Source: a virus
IMG/VR virus record: IMGVR_UViG_3300042879_001510
Coordinates: 1 to 20,135 of that record
DNA length: 20,135 nt
Direction: 5' to 3' (one strand)
A model generated the notes under the pieces. The model worked only from the letters and a program-made list of their open reading frames with translations, searched no databases and was not told the origin of the DNA. Shown here one piece after another: positions 307 to 19,068 of this stretch. The stretch's first letter is position 1. Each line of letters starts with the position of its first letter. Both the position numbers and the translations under genes were made by a program.

Positions 307-795
307 ATGGCTGAACTACTCGATCCTACCGAAATTTTCTTTACCCCATATGAACCGAAACTTGCTAACCGGTTTATTATGTATATCGAAGGTGTTCCTG
401 CTTACCTTATCAAAGGTGCATCACGTCCGAACGTTACCTTTAACGCAATAACTCTTGAACACATCAACGTAAAGAGAATGATTAAGGGTAAAGCAAAGTG
501 GGAACCAGTAACAATTAAGCTTTACGACCCAATCGTACCATCAGCTGCACAAGCAGTTATGGAATGGGTTCGTCTATCACACGAATCTGTAACAGGTCGT
601 GATGGATATTCTGACTTCTACAAGAAGGACATTACATTCAATACACTTGGACCTGTTGGTGACAAGGTTGAAGAATGGACTTTGAAGGGTGCCTTCATTC
701 AGGCAACTTCTATGGGTGAAATGGACTGGGGTGTAGATGACCCCGTTGAAATTTCACTTACACTTGAATACGATTATGCAATTTTGCAGTTCTAA
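307..795 (+). CDS. Tail tube protein (T4 gp19-like)
   Basis: This 162-aa protein is the subunit of the inner tail tube, which stacks as hexameric rings on the baseplate and forms the DNA channel. Length and pattern match the T4 gp19 family: an N-terminal segment with ANRFIMYIEGVPAYLIKGAS, a middle with KWEPVTIKLYDPIVPSAAQA, and a C-terminal EWTLKGAFIQATSMGEMDWG followed by a final β-strand (EISLTLEYDYAIL). It sits between the sheath and tape-measure side genes, as expected. The start ATG has a good Shine-Dalgarno (GGAG at 297-300, six bases upstream). Many C-ending codons and its own terminator on both sides suggest high expression, as expected of a major structural protein. Confidence 0.93.
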   Translation: MAELLDPTEIFFTPYEPKLANRFIMYIEGVPAYLIKGASRPNVTFNAITLEHINVKRMIKGKAKWEPVTIKLYDPIVPSAAQAVMEWVRLSHESVTGRDGYSDFYKKDITFNTLGPVGDKVEEWTLKGAFIQATSMGEMDWGVDDPVEISLTLEYDYAILQF

Positions 796-2318: not shown

Positions 2319-2330
2319 TAGTTGTATCAA

Positions 2331-5300
2331 ATGGCAAAACAAAAAGATAATACATCGGCAATAACAGATGACCAAAATAGACTCAATGATTCTTTGAGAA
2401 AGCAACAAGAGATTTTGGGACAAATTGCTGCGCTCGAAAATCAAAGTTTAGAGACATATGCCGATAGATTAAATCTTCAGGAACAACTATATACAAACGC
2501 AAAATTAATAGCAACGGTAGGACAACAAATAGACAAATTGGGTCAATCAGATTCTGACCGTGCAAAACTTTTAACAGAACAATATTCAACACACAGAGAT
2601 TTACTTGACGAAGTGCAAAGTAAATATTTTGATATTGTAACAAATTCTAACAATATAGTTGAAGATTCATTTGAAGTAGTAGATTTATCAAAAGAACAAA
2701 ATAAACTTGCAGAGATTTTGTTGGATACTGAACTTGCAAGAGATGTTCTTGGTGAAAAAGAGTATAATAAACAAAAAGCCCTTTTAGAGTTTATTAGACA
2801 ACGACTCGATTCAATGAACGAAATAAATAACACTCAACAAAGAGCGAATGATTTATCTAAAAAGTTTTTATCTGAAAATACTCTAATTGGTGGTGCTCTT
2901 CAAAAAACTCTCGGTGGTATAGAAAGTTTAGCCGAAAAATTCGGAGGTCATGGTCTCATAGGTCATATTCTTGGTAAGAAAGCATCTAAACTTATAGAAG
3001 AAACAAGAAATAGTATTCGAACAAAAATAGTAAAAGCATTTCAGGAGTCTGGAAGTGCTGGAGTTAATGCATTTTCAGTTGCTAAAATGGCGGCGGGTTC
3101 TTTTGTTAAGTATGCACTTCCTGCACTTGGTATTGCGGGTGTACTCGGTATATTCTATGCAATATCCCATGCAATAGGTCACCTCGATGAAGAACTAAAA
3201 GAGATTGGTCAATTATTTACAGCTAGTAGACAAGAAGCTGATAAGATACACCATATATCTGTTGATATGGCTAAAGAAATGGGTGTTGTTGGTATAAACT
3301 CTATGGAAGTTGCAAAGGGTATAAAGGAAACACAAAATTCTTTAAATGGTTTATCACTTGTTCCTTTATTAAAAGCTGGAAACGAAGAAGCTAAAAAACT
3401 TGTTGAAGACACAACTATTCTAACAGAAAAGTTTGGTCTGTCTGCTGATGAAGTTGGTAATCTTCACGGACTGGCTGCTATTACTAAAAAACCAATCGGT
3501 GAATTAGTAAAAGATAGTATTAAGATGGGTAAAGGGTTTTTAGGAACTAAAGCTTCAATTCAATTGATAGCAAAGTTATCACCAACAATGACGCTGAACT
3601 TTAAGAAAGGTGGACAAGAACTTTTAAAGGCAGCTCAAAAAGCCAAACTATTAGGAATGGAATTGGAAGATGTTCAAAACTTTGGAGAAACTATTCTCGA
3701 TTTTGAATCGTCACTTGAAAAAGAAATGGAAGCTAGAGTTCTTACTGGTAAGAATATAAACTTTGACCTAGCACGTCAGTATGCTCTTAATAATGATATT
3801 GCATCTTTACAAGAAGAAATGTTACATCAACTTGGTTCTTCCGCTGAATTTGAAAAGATGAATTTCTTACAAAGAAAATCAATCGCGGATGCATTTGGTA
3901 TGACAGTAGACCAAGTTGCAAAACTTTTAATTTCTCAAGAAAAATTAAAAGACTTGGGTATAAGTCAAAATAAGTTAGATGTGCTTCAGAGTAAGAATGC
4001 AGAAGAACTTAGAAAAGAATCAGAAAAACTTGGTAGTGGTAAACTAAAAGATTATATAACACAACTTGCAAAAGAAAAAGAAGTAGCAACGATAAATGAA
4101 CGTATAAGTGATGCAATGACAAAAATAAAAGAAACTTTGTCTGCAACACTCGCACCACTTCTTGAACAAGTACACCACTTTTTAGATTCTGCCGAAGGTG
4201 CCGAGTTTATTAAGAGTACAGTCGAAGGTATAAAGACAATTATGTATGGTCTTGTTTCTGCTGGTAAAGCACTTGCATCAGGTATTTCATACGTCAACAA
4301 GTTATTCGGTGGAACTGGGGTAGCAGTTGGTATGATAGGTGGTCTTTTGGCAACAATCGCAACTTACTTTGTAGGAAAGGCTTTGATTGTAAATGGAGTC
4401 AAAGCTTTAACAAGTTCATTAACAGGTGCATCATCTGCCGCAAGTAATCTTGCAGGGGGAGTTCAACAAATAGCCAATGCATCAAGTGGTCTTGGTGGAG
4501 CTGGTGGTGCTGGTGGTCAACTTGCATCATTTGGTTCTGGTATAACACCGTTTGCTCAAAATGCAGTTGCACTCGGAATATCCTTAATTGCTTTTGCTGG
4601 TGCTCTTTGGATAACATCGAAGGCTTTCCAAGAGTTTGCGAAACTAAATTGGGACAATATATACAAAGGTTTGACAGTAATGGGAGCTATGGCGGGGGTC
4701 GCCGTTGTATTAGGATTAGTTGGAAAGTTTTTCATAGCAGATGGTGGCGTTACTGCGGCAGGACTTATGGCATTAGGTGCGTCTCTTGTATTGTTTTCCG
4801 CTTCATTACTTATTGCCGCAAAAGGTCTAGAAATAATGTCCAAAGTAAAATGGAAAGATTTCGATGGAATGTTTACCGCGTTAGTGAAGGTTGCCGCATC
4901 ATTTGGAGTATTAGGTGCGTTACAACCACTTATTTATGCAGGTTCACTGGCTCTCGGTGCCGCTGGTCTTGCCGTCGGTTTATTCGCCGGTAGTGTTTAT
5001 CTTCTCGGCAAAGGACTCAAGTCTTTATCAGAAATAGGAGATATGAGTGCGGCAGGAAAGAACATTGTAAATGGATTGAAAGAACTTGCTAAGGTTCCAA
5101 AGGCATTAGATATAAAGGCAATTGAAGATTCATTTGATGAACTAGAAGATGCTTTGGATGAATTAAATTTTGATGACCTGATTGCATTTGGAGATTTGGC
5201 AAAAGCTGAAATGAAGAAAGCTGGTTCTAATTTAGTCGAAGGTATAAATTCATTGGTCGGTATAAATGAGAATATAAATTGGAGTCAACTTGAAACTACG

Positions 5301-6200
5301 TTTGACTTGTTGGAAGATTCTCTCGATGAATTAGATTTTGATGATGTAAAGGCATTTGCAGAACTTGCAAAAACAGACCTATCAAATGTTGGCTCAAACA
5401 TCAATAAAGGATTAGAATCCTTATCATTGGTAAAAGCAACACCAGACATTCAGAAAAATTTACTTCAAGTAGAAAAGATATTTGATTGGTTTGAAGATGC
5501 ACTTTCAGAATTGGATTATGAAGACATAAAAGAATTTACTAGTACCGCTTGGGAATCAATGACGGGATTTGCAAATAAATTCAAAGAGTTTTTAACATCA
5601 CTTGGTTCTCTTCCAAAAAATTCAGGTTCGATAATCGGTGGATTTTCTTGGTTGATGGGGATGGTATCTGAAGCCGTCAACAATATAGACCCAAGTATTT
5701 TTCAAACGATTGGCGAAATGCAAGTACAAAATCTTACTGCATTCTCAAATAAATTTAGTGATTTTATAAAGACATTGGAGTCAAGTAACGCAAAAGCACC
5801 AAGTGCAATTTCGAATTTGACATCTAACTTCCAATTATTAAACGAAGCCATAAACAAACTAAACGTCAATAAACTAAAAGAACTTTCTAGTATTAGAATG
5901 GAAGTTGCGGAACCAACAGGTATAGTTGGTTTTGTGAATAAACTTCTTTTTGGTAAAACCGCAGATGAGACAACTACTGCTGTTTCAACTCCATCGGGTG
6001 GGGTTGGTGTAAAGAATGAATCGAATGTAAAACTAGATAAGATGATTAAGTTGCTCGAACAACTTGTTGGTGGATTGAATCAACCTACTGTTATTAAGAT
6101 TGGTGATAAGACAGTAGAAACCATCGCAGTAAATGCTGAACGTTTGAGACAACAAAACCCAACACGTTCAGGTGGTCGTCAGATTGACGTGATTTTATAA
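2331..6200 (+). CDS. Tail tape measure protein
   Basis: This protein of about 1,289 aa sets the tail length and is carried inside the tube until DNA injection. The N-terminal 170 residues are Gln/Leu/Glu-rich with coiled-coil character. Hydrophobic helices lie near 257-285, 660-690, 742-768, 781-803, 810-835 and 851-898, a pattern usual for tape measures, which interact with the host membrane. Residues about 930-1090 hold three diverged repeats of 56-60 aa with cores such as DSFDELEDALDELNFDD. The start chosen is ATG 2331; an in-frame TTG at 2322 is possible, but neither has a clear Shine-Dalgarno. At about 0.15 nm per residue the predicted tail is near 190 nm, longer than that of T4 (gp29 is about 590 aa). 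No lysozyme or peptidase motif was noticed. Confidence 0.88.
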   Translation: MAKQKDNTSAITDDQNRLNDSLRKQQEILGQIAALENQSLETYADRLNLQEQLYTNAKLIATVGQQIDKLGQSDSDRAKLLTEQYSTHRDLLDEVQSKYFDIVTNSNNIVEDSFEVVDLSKEQNKLAEILLDTELARDVLGEKEYNKQKALLEFIRQRLDSMNEINNTQQRANDLSKKFLSENTLIGGALQKTLGGIESLAEKFGGHGLIGHILGKKASKLIEETRNSIRTKIVKAFQESGSAGVNAFSVAKMAAGSFVKYALPALGIAGVLGIFYAISHAIGHLDEELKEIGQLFTASRQEADKIHHISVDMAKEMGVVGINSMEVAKGIKETQNSLNGLSLVPLLKAGNEEAKKLVEDTTILTEKFGLSADEVGNLHGLAAITKKPIGELVKDSIKMGKGFLGTKASIQLIAKLSPTMTLNFKKGGQELLKAAQKAKLLGMELEDVQNFGETILDFESSLEKEMEARVLTGKNINFDLARQYALNNDIASLQEEMLHQLGSSAEFEKMNFLQRKSIADAFGMTVDQVAKLLISQEKLKDLGISQNKLDVLQSKNAEELRKESEKLGSGKLKDYITQLAKEKEVATINERISDAMTKIKETLSATLAPLLEQVHHFLDSAEGAEFIKSTVEGIKTIMYGLVSAGKALASGISYVNKLFGGTGVAVGMIGGLLATIATYFVGKALIVNGVKALTSSLTGASSAASNLAGGVQQIANASSGLGGAGGAGGQLASFGSGITPFAQNAVALGISLIAFAGALWITSKAFQEFAKLNWDNIYKGLTVMGAMAGVAVVLGLVGKFFIADGGVTAAGLMALGASLVLFSASLLIAAKGLEIMSKVKWKDFDGMFTALVKVAASFGVLGALQPLIYAGSLALGAAGLAVGLFAGSVYLLGKGLKSLSEIGDMSAAGKNIVNGLKELAKVPKALDIKAIEDSFDELEDALDELNFDDLIAFGDLAKAEMKKAGSNLVEGINSLVGINENINWSQLETTFDLLEDSLDELDFDDVKAFAELAKTDLSNVGSNINKGLESLSLVKATPDIQKNLLQVEKIFDWFEDALSELDYEDIKEFTSTAWESMTGFANKFKEFLTSLGSLPKNSGSIIGGFSWLMGMVSEAVNNIDPSIFQTIGEMQVQNLTAFSNKFSDFIKTLESSNAKAPSAISNLTSNFQLLNEAINKLNVNKLKELSSIRMEVAEPTGIVGFVNKLLFGKTADETTTAVSTPSGGVGVKNESNVKLDKMIKLLEQLVGGLNQPTVIKIGDKTVETIAVNAERLRQQNPTRSGGRQIDVIL
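5118..5634 (+). repeat. Three diverged 56-60-aa repeats in the tape measure protein
   Basis: Repeat starts are at 5118, 5286 and 5466. The cores read IEDSFDELEDALDELNFDD, LETTFDLLEDSLDELDFDD and VEKIFDWFEDALSELDYED, each followed by a helix ending in G/N-x-L-x-SL. A weaker fourth copy may follow near 5700. The acidic helical repeats are protein-level; DNA identity is low. Confidence 0.75.
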
Positions 6201-6280: not shown

Positions 6281-9200
6281 ATGGCGTTAGTAGACTTATC
6301 ATCTGACTTATCTAAATTCCGTGTGAATGTAAAAACATCGGTTGAAACTAGACCTGATGTTTCAAAAGCAAAATCCGCACGTTCTTTTGGTGCTTTTCAA
6401 CCGATTTCTGAAAAGCTGTCTAGCTTTGCACCCAAGATAACAAAACCAACTCAAGATAAATTAGAGAATAAACTGGAATCAACAAGTTTAGATAACATAA
6501 TTAAAAAGTTATCCAATGATTTGATTATTAACTCGGTTTCAAGATATAGTCCTGTAAATATATCCGATAAGAGATTAAAACTTACTCAACCTTCAATAGA
6601 AGACATATCTTCTAAATTTCAAGAAATACGTCAAGAAGGATTTACTACAAAGTTAAATAAGTCAGATATTCTCATATTGAGAAGTGAACGTGGTACAAAT
6701 AATACTACTTCTCCTATTGAAGTTAATATGTTATTGGCAAAAACTATTGATAGAAAAAACTCTAGTCCAAATGTTTTTTCGTTTAAGAATACCGATAACA
6801 AAGAATTATCATCACCAAATATTTTTGTTGATAAAAATGATTCATCGGATGATGTTGTAAATCCAGATACAAAAATAAACACAATACCTTTGACTTTTGA
6901 TAGAACATCAAGCAGTCCTGATATTTTACCATCATCTAATGTAATGGATAAATCAGGTCAAAGTCCTGATGTATTAACTCCTACTCTTTCTATGGATGTG
7001 TCAGGTCAAAGTCCTGATGTATTAAAGTCATCGCCAGTTATGGATAAAACTGACCAAAGTCCTGACGTATTTTCACGAGGTGAATCATCTGATAAGTCAA
7101 AAAGTTCTCCAAAAATAAAAACAGATAGTCAAGAATATCTTAATAACATAACTGACCCAAAAACAAAGGTTTTCTCAAAACCACTTTCATTTGATAAATC
7201 CGGTCAATCTGTTCTTGTTAATAAGGACTTAATTTCTCCATTAAATAATGTTGTCAATCCTGATATTGCATTAGAAAAAAGTGTCCTGACTTTTGATAAA
7301 TCACTTCAATCTCCTGAGATATTTACAGAAACATTAAAACAAGGATTGGTGGTAAATCCAAATACAAAGGTATTTAGAATTGAATCTGGTACAAATCACT
7401 TAACAGACGAGAGTAGATTAAATCCAGATGGTATACCATTCAGATTTGAAACCACTTCTAGATTAGAAAAAAGAAATCCTTCAAGAATAGTTGACGATAA
7501 GAACAAGTACACGGGAATTTCCAATCAATTGGAAGATAATAGTTCTTTAAATATTGACGGAGTAAATAGAACAAATCCAATTGGTAGAAATGAAAATCCT
7601 GAAAAATCAATTCTTTCAACAAAAGGAACACAGGAAGTTAATTTCTTCCGAAACGATAATGGAAGTGGATTTACATCAAAAGTTCAAAAGGGTGTATCTG
7701 AATACAACAATAATTCAGAATTTGTTTGGCGTGGTTCAAGACTAAATGCACCAGAAACAAACTTCATTTCAGACACAAATGGTATAGGATTTACAAAGTT
7801 TGCAGTAATAGGTGATACTAAATTCAAAAATGAAACTTCAAAATATGGATTTGAAGGAAAACCTTCGGTCAATTATTTTGATTTAGGAGAAAGATATACT
7901 ACGGATGGATTTTCAACATCTGTTTTTTCTTTAAATTCTTTCTATAAAAAAGATTCTTCTATATTTGACTGGGATGGAAGTAGACAAAATGCATCTACAT
8001 TTGGTAGATTTACAAAATTTGTAACTCCACTTGTTACATCATATGTTAATGACAGTTCTGTTTTTACATGGAAAGGTTCAAATCAAAAAGCACCTGAAGT
8101 AAACTTTTTAGATGGAACTGGTATAAATACAACAAAAGGTTTTCATACATTTGCACAACAATATGATTCCAAGTATAATCACGAATCCTCCAGATACGGG
8201 TGGTTGGGGAATGATTCAACTGCACCACAAACCAATTTCTTTGATGTTAATGAAACAAATGTTCAAAGTGGATTTGATAGATTTGTAACTTTTCTTTCAA
8301 CAAAGTATAAGAATAACACATCAAGATATGGTTGGGTTGGTAGTAATACTCAAGCACCGTCTACAAACTTTTTTACAAATACAAACGCAACTGGATTTAC
8401 TACCTTTTCCACAAAATTATCGACTGAATACAAAACTGAAAATTCTGAGTTTGTTTTTAAGGGAGTTGTTCCGAATCCAACTGATTTCTTCTCAAACACA
8501 AATTCTTCTGGATTCACAACAAAGATTACACATTTAAATTCTCAGTTTTCAAAAGATTCAAGTGTTTATACATTTAAGGGTAATTCAAGACAAGCCCCGA
8601 CGGTAAACTTTATACAAGATACTTCAAACGGTGGTTTTACAAGTTTTGCACAATCTTTAACATCGGAATTTAAGAAAGATATTTCAAAATTTGGATTTAA
8701 GGGAAGTTCAAGACAGGCACCAACTGTAAACTTTATTCAAGACAGTATTAATTCTGGCTTTACAAGTTTTGTACAATCACAAGTTACTGAATTTAAGAAA
8801 GATACATCGAGATTTACTTTTGCCGGTACATCAAGACAGGCAAATGGTGTAAACTACATATCCGATACAATTAACACTGGATTTACAACGTTTGCACAAT
8901 CACAAGTAACTGAATTTAAAACTGATGTGTCAAGATATTCTTTTGTTGGCGGTAGAACAGTATCACCTCAAACTAATTTCTTTTCAGACACACCTTCTTC
9001 TGGATTTGATAGACTTGCTAGATATTTAGATACAAAGTATGTTCCAAAAGTCAGTAAATTCACATGGAATGGTGATAGACAAAATGCACCAGAGGTAAAC
9101 TTCTTTTACATACCCGGTAAAAATCCAAATGCTATTCCTGGATTTAATAAGTTATTCGTTGATAAATCTGAAACAAAATTATCCGATTCTTATTCAGGAC

Positions 9201-12172
9201 TTTCATTTGCTGGAACAACTGTTCGTTCTGCTGTAAAACCTGTACCATATACAAACTTCTTTGGATATATTCCATCTGAACGTTCTGGATTTATGGTAAA
9301 TATGTCTACATTTGATGGTACATTATACCCAAATATTTCTCCAAAATTAAATTACAATGCAGATAGTGGAACTCGGATTGGAGTAGAAAAAATAAGAGCA
9401 CTTCGTGGTGGATTGAAAACAACAAAATCGGAAGACGAAAAGTATGCTCCTAAATCATTAGGACCACGGCCTTGGATTGACGGAACACTCGTATCAACGT
9501 TAGATTCTCAAATACCAGAAGGTCAGATAAAAACTGGTGCAAATGCAGGTTCTTATTTAAAGAAATATGAAACTGCTTTGAGAGAAGGAACAAACGGTCT
9601 TGGGTTTGTAACAAAATGGGCAACAACAAGAAGATCACCATCTCCACTCGATGAACAATACTTGAAGTATAAACTTCAGAATGAATCAACGAATAGTGAA
9701 CCGGCGTTTTTCTTCCAACCATACATTGTTCGTGGTATCCAACGTGACGGTGAAGTTGAAAATCAACGTTGGGGATTTGGTGTAACATTTGATGACGGTC
9801 TTGTACGAGGTGGTGCAGTAACACAGACAGAAAGAATACTTGCAGATACAATACGTCTTGGAAAATGGACTGCTAGTGTAAAAGGACTTCTATTCAATAT
9901 AAAACAAGTTGGATTACAACTTATGAATCCAAATGTTGATATAAATCCTTCAAAAACAGAAAGTTCATTTTTAGGAGTATCTGCAACACAAATATTCAAC
10001 CCACTTTCTATTATCGCAAATATTGCAAGTGCTCGTATCGGATTACATTTACCAAGACATGGTATTTTACCTTTCAATAAAGATTATCTGAACAAGTATG
10101 AAGATGCGACTATTGCTAGAGAAAATAAGAGTAAATTCATTGACCCGAATTATAAAAAGTTTGATGACCTAGAAACACCAACAGTGGTAGATAGACAAAA
10201 AGATTATAACAGACTAATTGGATTGATGAAAGAACTACTTCCAAATTCATTTAAACCCGTAGTAGCCGCTGATGTTTCTTCTGATTTTACAACATCTGCA
10301 CTTGCTAGAGCTGGTATAGAGTTGGCAAAGAAACTAACAGGTCAAACAGGTATTGCAAGATTGTCATCAACATTTGGTGGACCGCAATCTATTCTCGGTA
10401 TAGGTGGTACGCAAATTAATCGTGCAAGTCATCCATACTTAACTAGTTATACAACCACACCACTTTTGATGTTAACTGGCGAACAAAAAGAACCACAGTA
10501 TCAGGCGAGTGCTAAGAGAAACAGTTATTATGCTGCAATGGCAACATATAAAGAATCGTTTAACTTAACGAATATGTTGAGAACCATTGCCTATAATTTA
10601 CCAAGTGGTCCTTTTGAAATAAATGATGAGAATGTTACTCGTAATGTAAAAAACATCACAAACTTACAGCCATCAACTGTAAACAGAATTACAAAACAAA
10701 ATCCATTCGATCCAAAGTATGATTTATTTGATAATCGTTTACAGGCAACTAATGAGAATAATATTCAGCGTGCCGAAAGTTTGGCGAAAGGAATAAACCC
10801 TGTTCATGCCAATCCGTCTAATCCACTTCTTTTATACAGAACTGCGACGTATGATAAACTTGGAGTGACAAGAGATAGAAGACGTTCTAAAAATTCAACC
10901 ACAAGTACAGGTGATATGAATGACTTTAGAGCGGATTTGGATTTAGATAATCCTCAACTTGAGTCATTTATAACAGACCCAGCTGTTGTTGATTATGCTA
11001 ACAATAATTTGGAAGATAGATTTGGATTTGGTAAACACGGAAAAGTTGGTGTAAAACGCAATAAACCTTTTGCAAACACAATATCATATGCAAAGGCAAA
11101 AGAAGGTCATTCTATACCACGACTAAAAGATGCAGATAATGAATTTAGAGGTGATAGAATTAACATCATAGATTATAAACGTGGTAAGTTTGAAGTATCG
11201 AAAGAACTTGTTTATGAGGTCGGTGGATATAATAATAGAAATCTACCGGGTGCAGAAGACCTAATTGAATTTTATTTTACAGGACTTACTATAAATGGAA
11301 CTCAAAGTAAACCAGCAGAAGTTATTGTATTTAGGTCAACTTTCGGCTCTATATCTGATAGTCATAATGCAGACTGGTCAACTATAAAGTACATGGGACG
11401 TGCTGACCCGTTATATGTTTATCAGGGATATGATAGAGATATTACGTTTGACTTTGTAGTTCAGATAACATCTCGTGATGAAATGAAAGCAACTTGGCGC
11501 AAGATAAACAATCTGGCATCATGGACGGCACCTGAATATACAAAGGGTGGTTTTATGAAGGCTCCTATTATCCGATTGAACATTGGTAATCTATACAGAA
11601 AAATGCCAGGATTCATGACAAGTATCAGATATAATTTCGATAATGCAGAAACAACATGGGAAACTGCAAAACTAAAGGATGATAGAAATCTTCTTGGACA
11701 AACAGGAGACCAATCATCACCTGGTGTTCTTCAACTCCCAAAAACAATTCGTGTAGAATGTTCATTTACACCGATAGGAGTTTACAGACCAGAATACAAT
11801 GGTGTTATGTACTCATTGTTTGATGATAGTGCAGCTGGTAAATTAGAGAACGGTCTCATACCAAATGATGATATTAGAGTAAATTACTTTAAGACATTTG
11901 ATGTAGATGAGACTGGTAATAAACAGAATTTTGATACACAAGAAAATACAAGATTCTACAATATACCACCTGGAACTGAATCAACTATTCCACAAATAAA
12001 AGAAGAAGAACGAGATGGTATATCTGGCAAACAAGAATCACAAGATTCACAGACAGTACCTTCTACAAGACCAACAGTACCTGCAGATTTTCAAGGTCCA
12101 GCAACGGATACAACAACATATAGAAATCCACCTGGAGACAACCTTTCTTCATATCAAAATGTAGATAGATAA
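6281..12172 (+). CDS. Giant repeat-rich baseplate protein with tube-initiator-like C-terminus
   Basis: This 1,963-aa protein has three parts. Residues about 155-360 hold short Ser/Pro/Asp repeats (SGQSPDVL type). Residues 453-1031 hold about fourteen units of about 40 aa, each with T/V-N-F-F, G-F-T-x-F and S-x-F-x-F-x-G. The C-terminal part (about 1635-1850) looks like the baseplate tube cap/initiator proteins of T4-like phages (gp48/gp54 type): RADPLYVYQGYDRDITFDF, NLASWTAPEYTKGG, PGFMTSIRYNFDNAETTWE and CSFTPIGVYRP. The last 100 residues are polar and probably disordered. T4 gp48 and gp54 are only about 320-365 aa, so this is a fusion or large extension. It follows the tape measure gene, matching the T4 order gp29-gp48-gp54. 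No catalytic motif was seen. The repeat part may form a β-rich fibre or shell; that is inference. Confidence 0.75.
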   Translation: MALVDLSSDLSKFRVNVKTSVETRPDVSKAKSARSFGAFQPISEKLSSFAPKITKPTQDKLENKLESTSLDNIIKKLSNDLIINSVSRYSPVNISDKRLKLTQPSIEDISSKFQEIRQEGFTTKLNKSDILILRSERGTNNTTSPIEVNMLLAKTIDRKNSSPNVFSFKNTDNKELSSPNIFVDKNDSSDDVVNPDTKINTIPLTFDRTSSSPDILPSSNVMDKSGQSPDVLTPTLSMDVSGQSPDVLKSSPVMDKTDQSPDVFSRGESSDKSKSSPKIKTDSQEYLNNITDPKTKVFSKPLSFDKSGQSVLVNKDLISPLNNVVNPDIALEKSVLTFDKSLQSPEIFTETLKQGLVVNPNTKVFRIESGTNHLTDESRLNPDGIPFRFETTSRLEKRNPSRIVDDKNKYTGISNQLEDNSSLNIDGVNRTNPIGRNENPEKSILSTKGTQEVNFFRNDNGSGFTSKVQKGVSEYNNNSEFVWRGSRLNAPETNFISDTNGIGFTKFAVIGDTKFKNETSKYGFEGKPSVNYFDLGERYTTDGFSTSVFSLNSFYKKDSSIFDWDGSRQNASTFGRFTKFVTPLVTSYVNDSSVFTWKGSNQKAPEVNFLDGTGINTTKGFHTFAQQYDSKYNHESSRYGWLGNDSTAPQTNFFDVNETNVQSGFDRFVTFLSTKYKNNTSRYGWVGSNTQAPSTNFFTNTNATGFTTFSTKLSTEYKTENSEFVFKGVVPNPTDFFSNTNSSGFTTKITHLNSQFSKDSSVYTFKGNSRQAPTVNFIQDTSNGGFTSFAQSLTSEFKKDISKFGFKGSSRQAPTVNFIQDSINSGFTSFVQSQVTEFKKDTSRFTFAGTSRQANGVNYISDTINTGFTTFAQSQVTEFKTDVSRYSFVGGRTVSPQTNFFSDTPSSGFDRLARYLDTKYVPKVSKFTWNGDRQNAPEVNFFYIPGKNPNAIPGFNKLFVDKSETKLSDSYSGLSFAGTTVRSAVKPVPYTNFFGYIPSERSGFMVNMSTFDGTLYPNISPKLNYNADSGTRIGVEKIRALRGGLKTTKSEDEKYAPKSLGPRPWIDGTLVSTLDSQIPEGQIKTGANAGSYLKKYETALREGTNGLGFVTKWATTRRSPSPLDEQYLKYKLQNESTNSEPAFFFQPYIVRGIQRDGEVENQRWGFGVTFDDGLVRGGAVTQTERILADTIRLGKWTASVKGLLFNIKQVGLQLMNPNVDINPSKTESSFLGVSATQIFNPLSIIANIASARIGLHLPRHGILPFNKDYLNKYEDATIARENKSKFIDPNYKKFDDLETPTVVDRQKDYNRLIGLMKELLPNSFKPVVAADVSSDFTTSALARAGIELAKKLTGQTGIARLSSTFGGPQSILGIGGTQINRASHPYLTSYTTTPLLMLTGEQKEPQYQASAKRNSYYAAMATYKESFNLTNMLRTIAYNLPSGPFEINDENVTRNVKNITNLQPSTVNRITKQNPFDPKYDLFDNRLQATNENNIQRAESLAKGINPVHANPSNPLLLYRTATYDKLGVTRDRRRSKNSTTSTGDMNDFRADLDLDNPQLESFITDPAVVDYANNNLEDRFGFGKHGKVGVKRNKPFANTISYAKAKEGHSIPRLKDADNEFRGDRINIIDYKRGKFEVSKELVYEVGGYNNRNLPGAEDLIEFYFTGLTINGTQSKPAEVIVFRSTFGSISDSHNADWSTIKYMGRADPLYVYQGYDRDITFDFVVQITSRDEMKATWRKINNLASWTAPEYTKGGFMKAPIIRLNIGNLYRKMPGFMTSIRYNFDNAETTWETAKLKDDRNLLGQTGDQSSPGVLQLPKTIRVECSFTPIGVYRPEYNGVMYSLFDDSAAGKLENGLIPNDDIRVNYFKTFDVDETGNKQNFDTQENTRFYNIPPGTESTIPQIKEEERDGISGKQESQDSQTVPSTRPTVPADFQGPATDTTTYRNPPGDNLSSYQNVDR
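6905..7144 (+). repeat. Tandem 48-bp (16-aa) repeats, SPDV type
   Basis: Units start exactly every 48 bases at 6905, 6953, 7001, 7049 and 7097. The best pair (6953 and 7001) begins with 25 identical bases encoding SGQSPDVL. The pattern is [S/T]-x-x-SP-[D/K]-[V/I]-x8-D-K. Looser relatives occur upstream (SSPNVF, SSPNIF, near 6757-6830) and downstream (QSPEIF near 7309). Confidence 0.85.
7637..9373 (+). repeat. Array of about 14 units of about 40 aa in the giant baseplate protein
   Basis: Each unit follows [V/T]-N-F-[F/I]...GF-[T/D]-x-F......[Y/F]-K......S-[R/K/E]-[F/Y]-x-[F/W]-x-G......AP. Units 8-11 (about 8480-8995) are the most alike, with near-identical stretches such as SSRQAPTVNFIQD and SGFTSFVQSQVTEFKKD. 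Unit 4 has lost its NFF, and the last two units are longer and diverged. This suggests duplication in the middle of the array with decay towards the ends. Confidence 0.85.
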
Positions 12173-12188
12173 TATATAGGAAAATGAT

Positions 12189-12524
12189 ATGGCAAATAGA
12201 TACGAAGTTTCAACGATAGTTAACAACTCAAAAAAAGTTGAAAGTGACGGAAATATTCGGTATGTTAGAAGATTATCATCTATAACGTATCCAGAATTTA
12301 ATACCGAAAACGATACAAAGATTTTATCACAGGAAGGTGACAGATTGGATTTATTGGCAAAAGAATTCTATGGTGATGAATCACTTTGGTTTGTAATCGC
12401 AAAAGCGAATAATCTCGGTAAAGGTAGTCTTAATGTACCAGCTGGTCAGGTTATACGCATTCCATTTTATGATGATTATACTGGAATTAGGACTTTGATG
12501 AGTGACGAAAACATGGAAAGATAA
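12189..12524 (+). CDS. LysM-like baseplate protein (T4 gp53 / gpX type)
   Basis: This 111-aa protein has a LysM-like fold in its second half: residues about 50-97 include GDRLDLLAKEFYGDESLWFV, IAKANNLGKGSLNVPAG and QVIRIPFYDD. This arrangement (D-x-L-A-x-x-F-Y-G-D-x-x-LW...I-A-x-A-N...P-A-G...I-R-I-P) is typical of T4 gp53 and of the small P2 gpX-type tail proteins. Baseplate LysM proteins connect hub and wedge parts rather than degrade peptidoglycan. It is flanked by two large baseplate genes; its ATG follows AGGA at 12178-12181, and its stop lies two bases before the next ATG, so it is translated in one operon with them. At 111 aa it is shorter than T4 gp53 (196 aa) and lacks extra domains. 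Confidence 0.82.
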   Translation: MANRYEVSTIVNNSKKVESDGNIRYVRRLSSITYPEFNTENDTKILSQEGDRLDLLAKEFYGDESLWFVIAKANNLGKGSLNVPAGQVIRIPFYDDYTGIRTLMSDENMER

Positions 12525-12526
12525 CT

Positions 12527-14743
12527 ATGGCAACGATTATCAAAGATGGAAATACTCCGGTAAATGTAAACCCATTTTATCAACAAGTAAATGGTTTTGT
12601 TGTATCGGAATTATCAAATAGAGCTGCTTTAGTCGGAAGACGTGTAAGAAGTGTTGGTAAGTCTGCACCAAAAAGTGTAGAATGGGGTTATCAAAAGACC
12701 GCATGGGCTATTGTAAAATCATTACACAATTCTGCTATAGTTTTAGGAACACCTGGCTCAAATATAATGTCAGACAGAAAAGGTAATCTTACATTATACA
12801 ATGCAGAAAGAAATGTACCGAATAAACCACTTCTAACAAAAGTTGATATTACAAATGAAGGACAACTCGGTTCATTCATGAAAGCTCAAATTAGTTTTAC
12901 AATTTTTCCAAGAATGACCGGTGCTGGATTTGATATTGGTGGAATTGAAGATGCTTTTTTTGTTCCCGGTAGAGAAATAAATTTACGATGGGGATGGAGT
13001 GTTTTTGCTAATAATCAACGTGCGTGTACTGGTGATTTTAATGGTATAGTTTATGATTTCAACTGGAACTTTAATAACGATTTATCTGTTGCCGCATCTG
13101 TTTCTATAATTTCTCCATCTGGTCTAGCAATCGGTATGTCAGCTGACCTGATGAACAAGGCAGAAAACACGGTTAAAACCGTAGATGCTGCTGGTAGAGA
13201 AATGGTTGGTAGTAATCTTTCGAAAGTTATAGATGCGGATTTATCTCAATTGAGTTCATCCATCGCTCTTGGTGATGGTCAAGTTCAATACGTTGACCGA
13301 AGAAGTACAATAAATCAAAAGTTAGATTATTATGTAGTTGGATTGCCAATCGAAGAAACCGAACAAAGTGACGGTAGTGCAGGTAGTGGTGGTTCAAGAG
13401 TAACAAAAACTCAATGGTATGTTAAGTTCGGAGCAATTACTCAGTTTATAAATGAACTTTTAGATGCTTTTGATGACCCTGTTAAACAAATATTTGCAGT
13501 TCAATGTTTTGGTAATGAAACACAATATCTACCAGATGTTGTATCATCATATCCAGTTGATGTTTTTTTCCCAGATAGATCTATGGGTAGATATGGCCAA
13601 CTACAACCATTTGGTCAAGGAGGAGATGAATCAAATCCACTAACATCAAATAAAAAAGAAGGCACGATAAATATAGGTGAGATATTGTTAGGAACGGATT
13701 ATGTTAAATCAACATATGAAGGCTTTATATCGGATAATGCAAATAACATTCCATATAAAACTTTACCAAAATTATTAGATGAATTTTGTAAAAGGATAAA
13801 TTACGCATCCGGTGATATGTATGATTTAACTCCTGTTTTGTTTGAACCTAGTATTAATAACATAACTGGTCAAAACTTAAAATCAATTCTAACAATAGAA
13901 GATACAAATCTTCATGTAGGACTTACTGTTACTCCATATAGGTTCGAACCAACAATATTTAAACCTATCATAAGAAGTGTATCAATATCTTCACAACCAC
14001 CACCGGCAATGGCTATGGCAGCATTTACTGCTGCTCGTGGTAATGCTAAACCGGAACAAGGAAACGTTAGATTGGCAACAAAAACTGAAAGAGATAATAC
14101 TGCATATGACGAAGAATATGTTGACGCAAAAACAAACATATCTAGATTAAGATTCGATGGAATGCAAAATGGATTTAGTGATAAATGGTCAGAAGAACTT
14201 CGAGGATTTCTTGTTAAGATAAAAAGAACATCAAATGCAACTGATGCTCATTGGTTGAATAAAGCAATATACCCTGTTAAGTTTTCAGTAACTATGGATG
14301 GTATAAATGGATTTAAATTCGGAGATACACTTTCTACAACTATGATACCTGCGTTATATAATACAACATATAACATGGTATTTACAGTATCTAAAGTTAT
14401 ACATAGTATAGAAAATAAAGACTGGACAACTCAATTAGAAACTGTTGCTCGTGTAACAAGCTTGGGAGATGGTGCACCACAAGTTAACTCAGACGGTACT
14501 GGTACACAAAATACACCAAGTTATTTATTGGCACCATGGGCAAGACCAGAAAATCAAGGAACATTACCAAGTGCACCAGGTTCTGCCCCTGTTCCAAAAC
14601 AAACTGCACCTGGATCTGGTCAATTTGTTTTTGGTAAAGGTTTTGTGACAACGAATCCACAACGAGTAAGTGGTGTTGGGACGGGAACAGGAGTTCAAAA
14701 CGGAACATTTACACCGGGTGATGGTTCTATATTAAAAAAATAA
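12527..14743 (+). CDS. Baseplate hub-like protein
   Basis: This 738-aa protein shows features of large myophage baseplate hub proteins (gp27/gpD-like). Early β-rich segments include SFMKAQISFTIFPRMTGAG and GREINLRWGWSVFANNQRAC followed by TGDFNGIVYDFNWNFNNDLS, the usual way a hub domain describes two interacting barrels. Near the end, SVTMDGINGFKFGDTLSTT, TYNMVFTVSKVIHSIENKDW and TTQLETVARV match the terminal domain of such hubs. The last 80 residues are Gly/Pro/Thr-rich and probably flexible. Its start lies two bases after the gp53-like stop, with only a weak GGAAAG leader, so translational coupling is likely. It contains no lysozyme domain, so any spike enzyme is elsewhere. The family is judged by motif pattern and neighbours, not by search. 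Confidence 0.72.
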   Translation: MATIIKDGNTPVNVNPFYQQVNGFVVSELSNRAALVGRRVRSVGKSAPKSVEWGYQKTAWAIVKSLHNSAIVLGTPGSNIMSDRKGNLTLYNAERNVPNKPLLTKVDITNEGQLGSFMKAQISFTIFPRMTGAGFDIGGIEDAFFVPGREINLRWGWSVFANNQRACTGDFNGIVYDFNWNFNNDLSVAASVSIISPSGLAIGMSADLMNKAENTVKTVDAAGREMVGSNLSKVIDADLSQLSSSIALGDGQVQYVDRRSTINQKLDYYVVGLPIEETEQSDGSAGSGGSRVTKTQWYVKFGAITQFINELLDAFDDPVKQIFAVQCFGNETQYLPDVVSSYPVDVFFPDRSMGRYGQLQPFGQGGDESNPLTSNKKEGTINIGEILLGTDYVKSTYEGFISDNANNIPYKTLPKLLDEFCKRINYASGDMYDLTPVLFEPSINNITGQNLKSILTIEDTNLHVGLTVTPYRFEPTIFKPIIRSVSISSQPPPAMAMAAFTAARGNAKPEQGNVRLATKTERDNTAYDEEYVDAKTNISRLRFDGMQNGFSDKWSEELRGFLVKIKRTSNATDAHWLNKAIYPVKFSVTMDGINGFKFGDTLSTTMIPALYNTTYNMVFTVSKVIHSIENKDWTTQLETVARVTSLGDGAPQVNSDGTGTQNTPSYLLAPWARPENQGTLPSAPGSAPVPKQTAPGSGQFVFGKGFVTTNPQRVSGVGTGTGVQNGTFTPGDGSILKK

Positions 14744-14755
14744 GATGAGGTAAAA

Positions 14756-15418
14756 ATGGCATTTCGTAAAAAAATATACTACCCCGAAAGTCAAATTGAG
14801 AAAAATCTTTACACCGCTGGTAAAGAATGGATGTTTTTGGATAACTGGAGGGAATATGTTGGATATTACCACAAATATTCTAACGGAGAAGTTTACTCAG
14901 GTAGAGAATGGGATCCAAATAGATCATTTAGATTGGTAGTGTATAAAGATAATCCAGAAGCATACTTCAGATATTTGGATTTGAAAAATTACACAATATA
15001 CAACGGTCAAAAATATCCAATAATCGGGGCACAACAAACTTGGAAATATGTTGCACCAAGAGCAGTTAAAGTTGTTCCTAATCAAAATGAAATTACAGAT
15101 GGTGTTATGAATCGGTATTTTGTTTACAAAAGAAATGAACCAAACAAAATAATTTTCGAAGTAGATTCAAGACAATTGGACGACTTTGGTAAAGATAATG
15201 CAGGTATAAACCAATATCTATGGAATTATATAACAGTGCCTTGGAAATTAACAGGACCAGAATTTGATTCATATCAAAACGGTATTTTAAAAACACCCGG
15301 TGTTGTTGATACAAACTCAAGAATTATTAGTAGACTTTCGAAAAAATTTCCTATATTAACACGGATATTAAATAATCCAAGAGAACATTCAATATACGAT
15401 AACTCAAGATCAAAATAA
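14756..15418 (+). CDS. Probable tail/baseplate structural protein of unknown function
   Basis: This 220-aa protein is rich in Tyr, Trp and Asn, which is common in phage virion proteins. Visible patterns are YYPESQIEKNLYTAGKEWMF, REYVGYYHKYSNGEVYSGRE, and a repeated aromatic core YLDLKNYTIYNGQKYPII. The YTxGKEW...YVGYYHxYxxGEVYSG arrangement resembles a small structural protein commonly seen next to hub genes in marine myophages (recalled, not searched). Start: ATG with GAGG at 14747-14750. The stop TAA overlaps the ATG of the polymerase gene by one base. No enzyme motif or membrane segment was seen. It may attach to the hub or serve as a fibre connector; this is only inferred from its location. 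Confidence 0.68.
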   Translation: MAFRKKIYYPESQIEKNLYTAGKEWMFLDNWREYVGYYHKYSNGEVYSGREWDPNRSFRLVVYKDNPEAYFRYLDLKNYTIYNGQKYPIIGAQQTWKYVAPRAVKVVPNQNEITDGVMNRYFVYKRNEPNKIIFEVDSRQLDDFGKDNAGINQYLWNYITVPWKLTGPEFDSYQNGILKTPGVVDTNSRIISRLSKKFPILTRILNNPREHSIYDNSRSK

Positions 15419-16632
15419 TGTTTCATTCAAATCCGTGCATTTGTATTCCATTTTTTTCAAATAACAACTTCCATTCTTCTGAATCTGAAGTAGTTGGTAT
15501 GTATCTATATTTTGTTGACGGAACAACAAAGATAGTAAACTTTACACATCCAGATGCTATTTTGTCAGAATATAATTTGGATTCAATAAAACTCCATCCA
15601 AATTCACTCATTCTAAATAAGAAAGGTATGGTATATCATGGATTTGATGATGGTATTGACTTAAATTCATATCTTCATTATTACATTCATGACCACGTAG
15701 ATATAGAGGATTTTTACACGAATGTGATGGAGAATTTCTACTCTCGGTATCACACATCAAAGAAATTATCTAAAATAATACCTCTGTCAAAACTTATTGA
15801 GTTTGCGGAGAATATTATCCTATTCGTTCTTCCATATTACAAACCAGATAAAATCTCACAGGAATGTATCGACTATTGTCAGGATTTTACAAATACATTC
15901 AAGTTCATTGAGTCAAACGAGATTCCATTTGGTAACGAGATGAAGAAACAGAATTATATGTGGTACACTGCAACTTCTCGTCCAAGTAACTCTTGGAACA
16001 ATTTCAACTTCTCTGCCCTCAATAAAAATGATGGTACACGTAATAAGATTCATTCCCGTTTTGATGGAGGGAAGATAGTTCAGTTTGACTATGATGCTTT
16101 TCATATCAAACTACTGGCAAAGATTCTTGATTATAAGTTTACCAAACATCCATACGAAGAAATAAAAGAAGAGTTGGGACTGGATATTCCATATGACGAA
16201 GTAAAGTCAAGGGTATTCCAAAACATCTATGGAACAATTACAGACCAATTCTTACAACATCCATTCTTCCAAAGAGTTCAAGCAATGATTGATGAACTAT
16301 ATCAAGAGTATGTTGAAAAGGGATATACGGAGTCATATTTCTATCATAAGAGATTCCGTGAAATAGAAGACCCAACACCAAATAAGGTCTTCAATTACTT
16401 CTTACAATCATTAGAGACCGAATACAACGTTCGTAAATTAAAAACCGTTCTACCGATGTTGCAAGAGCAAAGAACGATATTGTGTATGTATCTCTATGAT
16501 GCCTTTGTATTTGACGTTCCACCTGATGAATTACAATCTATATCACAACTAAAACGAGTTTTTGAAACGGACAATATGACTACTAAATGTTCAATTGGTG
16601 ATGATTTTGGTAGCATAATGCCATATTTATAG
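15418..16632 (+). CDS. Compact family A DNA polymerase-like protein
   Basis: This 404-aa protein carries the polymerase core of family A (E. coli Pol I-like), compared here with Pol I numbering. TATSRPS at R188 matches TATGRLS (R668). Motif A is VQFDYDAFHIKLLA with D224 (D705). The O-helix EVKSRVFQNIYG keeps K263, F267 and Y271 at the spacing of K758, F762 and Y766. NYFLQ (N326, Q330) matches N845/Q849. Motif C is LYDAFVFDV with D361 (D882). Both catalytic aspartates are therefore present. Odd residues: the steric-gate Glu is H229, HDE is YDA, and R754 is Tyr. The 187 residues before R188 are too few for both thumb and a full 3'-5' exonuclease, and no DxE exonuclease motif was seen. The start overlaps the previous stop (TAATG), with no Shine-Dalgarno, so it is coupled to a virion-protein gene. 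Confidence 0.85.
   Translation: MFHSNPCICIPFFSNNNFHSSESEVVGMYLYFVDGTTKIVNFTHPDAILSEYNLDSIKLHPNSLILNKKGMVYHGFDDGIDLNSYLHYYIHDHVDIEDFYTNVMENFYSRYHTSKKLSKIIPLSKLIEFAENIILFVLPYYKPDKISQECIDYCQDFTNTFKFIESNEIPFGNEMKKQNYMWYTATSRPSNSWNNFNFSALNKNDGTRNKIHSRFDGGKIVQFDYDAFHIKLLAKILDYKFTKHPYEEIKEELGLDIPYDEVKSRVFQNIYGTITDQFLQHPFFQRVQAMIDELYQEYVEKGYTESYFYHKRFREIEDPTPNKVFNYFLQSLETEYNVRKLKTVLPMLQEQRTILCMYLYDAFVFDVPPDELQSISQLKRVFETDNMTTKCSIGDDFGSIMPYL
16624..16631 (+). promoter_or_regulatory. TATTTATA boundary motif, candidate late promoter element
   Basis: TATTTATA lies over the last codons of the polymerase gene (Pro-Tyr-Leu-stop). It ends 30 bases before ATG 16662, which supports that start over ATG 16635, only three bases away. 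Confidence 0.35.
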
Positions 16633-17605: not shown

Positions 17606-18388
17606 ATGAAAAAATTCAAGAAACAAATAAAAGAAGGTCTTGCCGATAATATATCGAATAGTCTTCTTTACTCTTTTTTTATTGATGCATATCCACTTGT
17701 TAAAAAGAAAGGTGGACTTGTTACAATAATGTTTCCAAATGTTGGTCTTAAAAAGATAAGTCGCTGGGTAAGTGAAGTTGAGAATAGTGATGTTTTTACC
17801 CAAAATGAAGATAAGTTCAAACAAATTTTTATGAAGATGGGTGCAAACTCTTCACTTAAAACACTATACCGTGCAGTTAATACTTTAAAGTCAAAAGAAA
17901 CAAACTCTCAAGACAACGAACAACGTATAAGTGATTTAGAACTTCTTGTAAACAAGATAGGTAGATTTATAAAATCAAGATTATCTCAAGATGAACGTCA
18001 ATTATTTGAATCTATTTCTTCTATTTTAGATGGGGCAGCAGACAATGCCGCTAAATCGATAGAAGGTTCTGTTGGTGCATCCACGATTACACCGGAAAAA
18101 CCTAAAGAAGAACCAACGGAAGAACCAACGGAAGAACCGAAGGAAGAACCAACGGAAGAACCGAAGGAAGAACCAACGGAAAAACCTAAAGAAGAACCAA
18201 CGGAAGAACCGAAGGAAGAACCATCAGAAGAACCGAAAACAAAAGAAACCCCAGAAAAAGAGGTCAGTAAATCACCAGAAGGTGAAGATAAATCGGAAGA
18301 AAAACCAAAAGAAGAGTCTGTTAATCTTGAAGAATATTTAAAGTCTCTTATTCGGGAAATAGTTCAAAGAAAATTAAAATTGAAATAG
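17606..18388 (+). CDS. Unknown protein with Pro/Glu-rich tetrapeptide repeat
   Basis: This gene encodes 260 aa in three parts. Residues 1-150 are a folded, mostly helical domain (start MKKFKKQIKEGLADNISNSL). Residues about 163-212 repeat P-[T/K]-E-E, with proline at every fourth position. The last 20 residues form a basic amphipathic helix (YLKSLIREIVQRKLKLK). It begins 16 bases after the previous stop with GAGAAG at 17595-17600. The stiff, highly acidic spacer joining a domain to a C-terminal helix suggests a tether or scaffold-like role, or a periplasm-spanning linker, but no signal peptide or transmembrane anchor is visible. No family was recognised. Its stop codon lies inside the left arm of the 13-bp inverted repeat before the lipoprotein gene. 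Confidence 0.72.
   Translation: MKKFKKQIKEGLADNISNSLLYSFFIDAYPLVKKKGGLVTIMFPNVGLKKISRWVSEVENSDVFTQNEDKFKQIFMKMGANSSLKTLYRAVNTLKSKETNSQDNEQRISDLELLVNKIGRFIKSRLSQDERQLFESISSILDGAADNAAKSIEGSVGASTITPEKPKEEPTEEPTEEPKEEPTEEPKEEPTEKPKEEPTEEPKEEPSEEPKTKETPEKEVSKSPEGEDKSEEKPKEESVNLEEYLKSLIREIVQRKLKLK
18092..18240 (+). repeat. 12/24-bp tandem repeat encoding P-[T/K]-E-E
   Basis: About twelve tetrapeptide units are encoded by near-identical 12-base blocks (GAACCAACGGAA, GAACCGAAGGAA), often pairing into a 24-base unit. The high DNA identity suggests recent slippage expansion, and copy number may vary between isolates. Confidence 0.88.
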
Positions 18389-18410
18389 TTTGTAACTTTT
18401 TTCTTATATT
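18380..18410 (+). promoter_or_regulatory. σ70-like promoter for the lipoprotein gene
   Basis: TTGAAA (18380-18385) and TATATT (18405-18410) are separated by 19 bases; transcription would start near 18417. The spacing is long for σ70, but the -10 is the same as that of the ssb promoter. The -35 box overlaps the left arm of the inverted repeat and the stop of the preceding gene. Confidence 0.5.
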
Positions 18411-18437
18411 GAGGTTATTAATAGACAAACTATTTCA
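18381..18437 (+). repeat. Perfect 13-bp inverted repeat bracketing the promoter, touching the RBS
   Basis: TGAAATAGTTTGT (18381-18393) and ACAAACTATTTCA (18425-18437) are exact reverse complements, separated by 31 bases that contain the -10 box. The right arm ends one base before the AAGGAG Shine-Dalgarno (18439-18444). It could be an RNA hairpin in read-through transcripts or a DNA operator. Confidence 0.85.
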
Positions 18438-18450
18438 TAAGGAGTATAAT

Positions 18451-19068
18451 ATGAAGACAACATTACTTTCACTCATCACAGTTCTTGGACTTATGGCAAT
18501 CGTTGGTTGCTCAAATACAGAAACAGGTCCAACAGAACCAGAGACAATGTACACAACAATGGGATTCAATTCAGATGGTTCTATTTCAGAACAACCAATT
18601 GAACGACCAAATCCAGATAATGGTAAAAAGGTTACACCGAGTCCATTCGTTGACCTACTTCGTCTTCTAAATCTTACATCAGAACAAAAACCTGTTGTGG
18701 AAAGACTACTTATTCAACATAAACAATGTACACAATCTTGTATCGAAACACTCAAGACAGCTGAACGTGAAATTCTTATAAACGCAAAAATCGAAGAAAA
18801 TAAAATCAAAGACGCATTGAAGGGCGGTACAATCACTCGTGAAGTTGCACGTCGTGAATTGGCTCAATTGAAAAAATCAACACAAGAAAAACTAAAAGCA
18901 CTTCCAAGAGAAAAGGTTCGTGAATGTCTACAAGGGTGTGATACACAATTCCTAAACTCACTCAAAGAAATTCTTACATCTGAACAGAAAATTAAACTTG
19001 AAAAGTGGATTGCCTCTCGTCAAAAGAGAGGAACCACAGACGATAAGAATCCAAAGGGTCGGGGTTAA
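18451..19068 (+). CDS. Spy/CpxP-like lipoprotein with two LTSEQ motifs and twin CX3C
   Basis: This gene encodes 205 aa. I chose ATG 18451 because it has a very good Shine-Dalgarno (AAGGAG, six bases upstream) and begins a proper lipoprotein signal: MKTT, a hydrophobic core, and lipobox I-V-G-C with C20. Ser at +2 predicts an outer membrane anchor in Gram-negative hosts. After a low-complexity linker (21-65) comes a helical domain opened and closed by LTSEQ (residues 75-79 and 175-179), the signature of the Spy/CpxP LTxxQ periplasmic chaperone family. C93/C97 and C159/C163 form two CX3C pairs that could make disulfides across a helical hairpin. It has its own promoter and terminator. Phage lipoproteins often alter the infected cell surface, for example to block superinfection; that role here is inference. 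Confidence 0.82.
   Translation: MKTTLLSLITVLGLMAIVGCSNTETGPTEPETMYTTMGFNSDGSISEQPIERPNPDNGKKVTPSPFVDLLRLLNLTSEQKPVVERLLIQHKQCTQSCIETLKTAEREILINAKIEENKIKDALKGGTITREVARRELAQLKKSTQEKLKALPREKVRECLQGCDTQFLNSLKEILTSEQKIKLEKWIASRQKRGTTDDKNPKGRG

Follow-up and report, generated by a model that had tools for sequence, protein, structure and literature searches.

The window, by which we mean the whole stretch of DNA that was analyzed, is the complete 20,135-base virus record IMGVR_UViG_3300042879_001510, which probably represents only part of a phage genome. It carries a contractile-tail module in which the C-terminus of the sheath protein is followed by the tube protein, a phrog_150 hub protein, two small genes, the tape measure protein (TMP), an open reading frame (ORF) of 1,963 aa, a LysM-like protein, and a hub candidate.

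1-213: C-terminus of the sheath protein
307-795, plus strand: tail tube protein, 162 aa (phrog_4542, E = 1.5e-26)
895-1764: baseplate hub protein (phrog_150)
2322-6200, plus strand: tape measure protein, 1,292 aa (phrog_4372, E = 8e-8)
6281-12172, plus strand: tube-initiator-like protein with N-terminal repeat arrays, 1,963 aa, whole ORF
12189-12524, plus strand: LysM-like baseplate protein, 111 aa (phrog_7145, baseplate wedge subunit, E = 1.2e-12; weak LysM matches)
12527-14743, plus strand: hub candidate, 738 aa (named from its position; the neighbour is conserved in relatives)

The tail tube protein is 78 to 83% identical to the tube proteins of many relatives. Family and profile searches with the 738-aa hub candidate returned no match. 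Directly after the tail genes, a 404-aa ORF (positions 15418 to 16632) has weak matches to DNA polymerases (Pfam DNA_pol_A, E = 0.03; phrog_2573, E = 0.004). A 260-aa ORF (positions 17606 to 18388) has a repeat tract of the PTEEPKEEPTEEP type and is without a confident family match. The 219-aa product of positions 18409 to 19068 is possibly a phage lipoprotein, as its N-terminal start resembles a signal peptide followed by a lipobox (LMAIVGCSN).

A first-pass annotation, made from the letters of the sequence, had proposed that positions 6281 to 12172 encode a single baseplate protein in which short repeats that take up more than 1,000 residues are joined to a C-terminal domain like those of the T4 tube-cap proteins. 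The single ORF is real, and the rest of that description was confirmed in part. The protein is divided as follows.

6281-6745, plus strand: conserved N-terminal head, aa 1 to 155 (MALVDLSSDLSKFR...FQPI...; alignment, 14 invariant columns)
6746-7600, plus strand: short-tile array of 16- to 20-aa repeats, about aa 156 to 440, limits drawn by eye (direct repeats, sister-pair indels)
7667-9139, plus strand: long-tile array, 12 units of mostly 39 to 44 aa, aa 463 to 953 (unit HMM)
9140-9289, plus strand: degenerate last long unit, about aa 954 to 1003, limits drawn by eye (sequence)
9290-11230, plus strand: non-repeat middle region, about aa 1004 to 1650 (BLAST and sequences)
11234-11866, plus strand: C-terminal tube-initiator-like domain, aa 1652 to 1862 (AF2 model, fold searches)

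An HMM built only from the units of a homologue in Microcystis phage Mel-JY01 counted 12 long units in the window protein; in 200 shuffled sequences it never counted more than one. The long units described earlier are thus present, but their array covers about 490 to 540 aa rather than more than 1,000, and a second repeat family of 16 to 20 aa, located ahead of the long units, had been missed. These short repeats are of the D-x-S-x-x-S-P-D-V-F type and appear as direct repeats at a spacing of 48 nt; indels of 16, 31, 32, 34, and 20 aa separate sister pairs within this array. The head also holds a single 20-aa repeat of the LDDI type, which is amplified in the relatives L090 and L103. The arrays are not joined directly to the C-terminal domain but are separated from it by about 650 non-repeat residues, and motifs from this middle region recur in the distant members L059, L066, L073, L083, L085, and L087 (BLAST, sequences). 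The impression that the repeats are most alike in the middle of the array was roughly right: identity between neighbouring long units is 51 to 63% for the units at 744, 785, 826, and 867 and 17 to 39% at the array edges. In most relatives, unit spacing follows the pattern 40-40, then n × 44, and then shorter units of 39 to 41 aa.

Profile and sequence searches with the C-terminal domain in Pfam, PHROG, NCBIfam, and the PDB found no match at the sequence level. The domain was modeled with AlphaFold from 32 relatives with moderate confidence (pLDDT, 69; pTM, 0.64), and the top Foldseek matches of this model were baseplate and initiator chains of contractile systems. Chains from extracellular contractile injection systems (eCIS), phage A-1(L), and R2 pyocin were matched with E values of 1.4e-5 to 2.2e-4 and a probability of 1.00, the top matches being the Pvc7-like chain 6j0n_b (E = 1.4e-5), the A-1(L) initiators in 8kea (17% identity), and AFP 6rao_G. 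The best VIA-align Z scores were 8.9 to 9.7, over about 150 residues of the domain (P1, 9.7; A-1(L), 9.6; R2 pyocin, 9.2; AFP, 9.1; T4 baseplate 5iv5, 9.0). The proposed resemblance to gp48/gp54 is therefore supported at the level of fold and found no counterpart in the sequence databases. The gene order of TMP, initiator-like gene, LysM-like gene, and hub candidate is shared by the window and most relatives with enough flanking sequence.

Because of the fold matches of the C-terminal domain and this gene order, the 1,963-aa protein is identified as a putative tail-tube initiator, and the model supports a tube-like β-barrel fold for it. The C-terminal domain would sit at the center of the baseplate, as fold and gene order suggest, and the protein is presumably hexameric. 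The modeled C-terminal domain shares this fold with the known tube initiators of contractile machines (T4 gp48/gp54, A-1(L) gp18, Pvc7/Afp7, and R2 pyocin). In A-1(L) gp18 the initiator barrel comprises residues 2 to 180 (PMC10966104). Unlike these known initiators, the protein studied here carries two repeat arrays in the roughly 1,600 residues ahead of its barrel, and it is 1,963 aa long compared to 364 and 320 aa for T4 gp48 and gp54.

A search of IMG/VR with a profile of the C-terminal domain showed that at least 548 stretches encode a relative. This family has so far been unnamed, and no Pfam, PHROG, or NCBIfam model for it was found. Of the at least 548 stretches, 80 were kept, and complete pairs of TMP and initiator were gathered after extending loci that had been cut at the TMP. 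The closest cultured homologue is WWT39329.1 of Microcystis phage Mel-JY01, which is grown on Microcystis elabens; it is a protein of 2,255 aa annotated as hypothetical, whose gene has the same neighbours in the same order as in the window. It has 21 long units by HMM, mostly of 44 aa, compared to 12 in the window, and the Mel-JY01 TMP has 1,348 aa compared to 1,292. A homologue in Flavobacterium phage immuto (716 aa) is without such an array. A literature search for papers on Mel-JY01 found none, and a profile of the N-terminal part, run against the GTDB genome collection to look for a prophage or host link, found no relative.

The length of phage tails is a textbook case of one molecular ruler. 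TMP length was used throughout as a stand-in for tail length, and the stretch before the first long unit was entered in residues rather than as counted short tiles. In 34 non-redundant array-bearing members, ordinary least squares gave TMP length = 499 (36) + 20.2 (1.0) × long units + 1.14 (0.07) × N-terminal residues, with an R2 of 0.951 compared to 0.51 for the best of 5,000 permutations. The ratio of the two coefficients was 17.7 aa; that is, one long unit was worth as many N-terminal residues as are in one short repeat, which indicates that a short repeat carries the same weight as a long one. If residues were what mattered, a ratio of about 44 would be expected. The idea that a short tile equals a long one was formed on these training data, after the number of long units alone had left the window and its sister L003 as outliers. 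With TMP length as the yardstick, a ruler read in residues was rejected, because in the same 34 members models based on the residue length of the N-terminus plus array (R2, 0.55) or of the whole protein (R2, 0.30) fell far short of tile counting (R2, 0.95).

In independent contrasts on all 46 members, about 19.2 TMP residues corresponded to one long unit (bootstrap 95% interval, 15.5 to 22.0) and the coefficient ratio was 17.0 aa (14.3 to 20.8), whereas R2 was 0.14 to 0.15 for the residues of the array alone and 0.007 for the rest of the protein. Shared ancestry was considered as the cause of the correlation and rejected: independent contrasts on a tree of the C-terminal domain, which reuse the training data, gave an R2 of 0.866 for the 34 members (t = 11.6 and 11.8; ratio, 16.7 aa) and 0.78 to 0.83 for all 46.

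The held-out set is alone in being new. The HMM, its cutoff, and the formula were frozen before the new TMP lengths were seen, and the goals were an r above 0.8 and a root mean square error (rmse) below 35 aa. In 12 new members, several of which are closely related to one another or to members used for training and so do not amount to twelve fully independent tests, r was 0.892 (P = 1e-4; Spearman, 0.854), above its goal, and the rmse was 46 aa, larger than its goal but lower than the 85 aa about the training mean. Whole-protein length in the same set had an r of −0.23 with TMP length. The largest misses (+100 and +82) were L163 and L180, which belong to a clade with stretched units; recounting by eye raised their unit numbers from 15 to 16 and from 16 to 18, respectively, which brought the misses down to about +79 and +42.

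Thus, in this group of large phages with contractile tails, the number of tiles, not of residues, tracks TMP length across the array-bearing relatives, and as a correlation this ruler-like co-variation is strong. A literature search found no earlier report of it. Like the TMPs themselves (λ gpH, T4 gp29, and TP901-1), the N-terminal part is a long chain whose length varies with tape-measure length. The repeats of the TP901-1 TMP are 11 or 18 aa long (PMC5099701). Unlike in TMPs, it is the tile count that matters here, the chain is fused to a tube initiator, and the tape is encoded by its own gene, immediately upstream of the repeat-bearing initiator gene.

Comparisons between sister phages show how the total changes. 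From the window to L003, three long units are lost and short repeats of 31 and 16 aa are gained, with TMP longer by 4 aa; from L010 to L009, two long units are gained and 32 aa of short repeats lost (TMP, +5 aa); and from L038 to L015, four long units are gained and two stretches of 34 aa lost (TMP, −14 aa). Sister phages with similar TMPs therefore swap long for short tiles one for one (3 for 3, 2 for 2, and 4 for 4). Since the gains and losses of the window and L003 lie in different arrays of one protein, the total seems to be kept. Where the TMP does change, from L089 to L090 (+54 aa), one long unit and two 20-aa tiles are added. In two further pairs, L093/L094 and L101/L103, the TMP differs by about 20 aa and the tile number is unchanged. 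The compensated length variants that occur naturally offer material for testing how rulers work.

In L091, L095, L096, and L097, units reach about 105 aa, yet there are 18 to 20 of them at a TMP length of 1,300 aa. In the clade of L091, L095 to L097, L140, L163, and L180, the inserts lie within long units and the unit count is roughly kept; some units of L140 are near-identical 70-aa copies.

These data bear on the proposal that the repeats expand and contract neutrally and that the correlation stems from shared ancestry or chance. The greater likeness of the central units is what arrays growing by unequal exchange would display, and some distant relatives do break the rule. Neutral change is nevertheless very improbable, given that independent contrasts retain an R2 of 0.78 to 0.87, that r in the held-out set was 0.89, and that gains in one array of a protein are offset by losses in its other array at a nearly constant TMP length.

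A search of solved structures with a profile of the repeat unit found nothing meaningful, and an AlphaFold model of six units without a partner (42-row alignment) had a pLDDT of 34, a pTM of 0.14, and almost no strands. The long units are thus predicted to be without a stand-alone fold, in line with a chain that depends on a partner. The first-pass annotation had pictured several copies of the protein as a large, repeated β-rich mass around or inside the baseplate. A compact mass of this kind, with its repeat number free to vary, agrees with the place predicted for the C-terminal domain, in the center of the baseplate, but it is not supported by the modeled units, for which no fold is predicted, or by a repeat number that follows TMP length, which a local baseplate mass does not predict. 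We regard it as having little chance of being correct. A side remark in the same annotation, that the protein might act as a second ruler, is favored by the comparative data (regression, contrasts, and hold-out), so that its interpretation as a whole is partly supported.

The explanation proposed here, to which we give an even chance as a whole, is that the initiator carries a tiled tether with a tile total matched to TMP length. The C-terminal domain would anchor the protein at the center of the baseplate, and the N-terminal part would form the tether, with the conserved head, which lies beyond the variable array, at or near its far end. Each tile, whether of 16 to 20, 40 to 44, or up to about 105 residues, would make one step on a periodic partner, and one step would correspond to about 19 to 20 TMP residues. 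With one tile per step, selection would fit the tile total to the length of the TMP and presumably of the tail. The chain would then physically run along the tail or the tape.

The size of the step constrains the partner. At 0.153 nm per residue, a value from deletion data on TP901-1 (PMC5099701), 19 to 20 TMP residues span about 2.9 nm, whereas the tube rings of A-1(L) rise by 3.62 nm (PMC10966104). The bootstrap interval of the step (15.5 to 22.0 aa) lies below the 24 to 27 aa expected per ring, so that one tile per ring is not an exact fit. The periodic partner may be the tape itself, on which 21 aa make 3 heptads, or the ring lattice with an attenuated slope. The hydrophobicity of the TMP repeats at 7, 11, 14, and 21 residues; these are general helical and heptad peaks, the one at 21 included, and the case for a TMP lattice of about 20 aa as the partner is weak for that reason.

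The same step is relevant to a rather unlikely alternative, in which the tiles bind the TMP as a sleeve or chaperone, each covering about 19 to 21 residues (about 3 heptads), while the TMP alone sets the length and the array follows. The tiles would keep the TMP coiled coil extended until the tube polymerizes. On this reading, the tiles would resemble the λ tail assembly chaperones gpG/gpGT in covering the tape to an extent that scales with its length; the tape-coating candidate here would differ in its covalent link to a baseplate protein. At 19.2 aa, the step is nearer to 21 aa than to the ring step, and the TMP hydrophobicity peaks agree with such binding. Furthermore, the array starts at the initiator, and the distal end of the tape is near the initiator in solved A-1(L) tails (PMC10966104); in other phages, tail assembly chaperones act with TMPs (PMC5099701). 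However, there is no direct sign of pairing between tiles and TMP, TMP indels of close relatives fall partly in a low-complexity C-terminal linker, and stretched units that stayed in the lumen would still need space. The length difference between the TMPs of L089 and L090 lies mostly in this linker (L090 TMP, near residues 1330 to 1375), which in L090 has repeats of about 22 to 24 aa (SSLFGGGEEKKTTT).

Space in the lumen was estimated for an assumed radius of 20 to 21.5 Å. Six chains beside six tape helices would have room for only 33 to 46 aa per chain per ring, without any water, a result that speaks against placing six copies within the tube if their units are stretched. Units of up to about 105 aa would be accommodated more easily if the chains left the baseplate, followed the outer surface of the tube or sheath with one tile for each ring, and served stability or adhesion, covering the tail rather than measuring it. 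Such an outer decoration would scale with TMP length in the same way. The step is about 20% short of the ring rise, though, and in solved baseplates the initiator ring is enclosed by the wedge and the sheath initiator (PMC10966104), so that chains on the outside would need an exit path. It seems unlikely that the arrays are an outer decoration.

For the tiled tether, the co-variation alone does not establish the array as a ruler. The array may help to set or check tail length, as a second ruler, beyond merely following it; as a mechanism, this is a hypothesis with about even odds. A more specific form, in which the tether extends from the baseplate toward the top of the tail, takes one tile of whatever length per lattice step, and together with the TMP fixes or checks the number of rings, is conceivable but doubtful. 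A second protein at the baseplate end with a repeat count, rather than a mass, held to the length of the ruler would suggest a readout of tail length by the counting of docking steps.

The relation between tiles and TMP is not universal, and distant relatives with few or no repeats fall off the line: L083 (TMP, 1,009 aa) and L085 (TMP, 950 aa) are nearly free of repeats, and no significant relation was found in the distant group. Other N-terminal repeats are present in the distant members L066, L073, L059, L064, and L067, whose TMPs have 543 to 747 aa; the repeat types in this set are GRHTEGKEV-type (about 16 aa), YNVNTDQSETGIFGIP (16 aa), and PYQxNGYxPIQ-type (about 22 to 24 aa).

No homologue was identified in the long-tailed cyanophage S-CREM2 (PMC10665884). 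Its genome (OR473000) has two large adjoining virion ORFs among the tail genes at positions 154483 to 163554, gp208 and gp209, which are annotated as endolysins and have about 1,565 and 1,456 aa; the tail of this phage is 418 nm long.

The 484-kb phage LR756508 (L007, positions 9765 to 14504) encodes an initiator homologue with an unrelated acidic N-terminal array (33% D+E) that has a period of 16 to 17 aa across about 840 residues, and its TMP has 1,602 aa. The frozen formula, applied post hoc, predicted 1,498 aa. The occurrence of a 16- to 17-aa period in this unrelated array as well may reflect a physical spacing.
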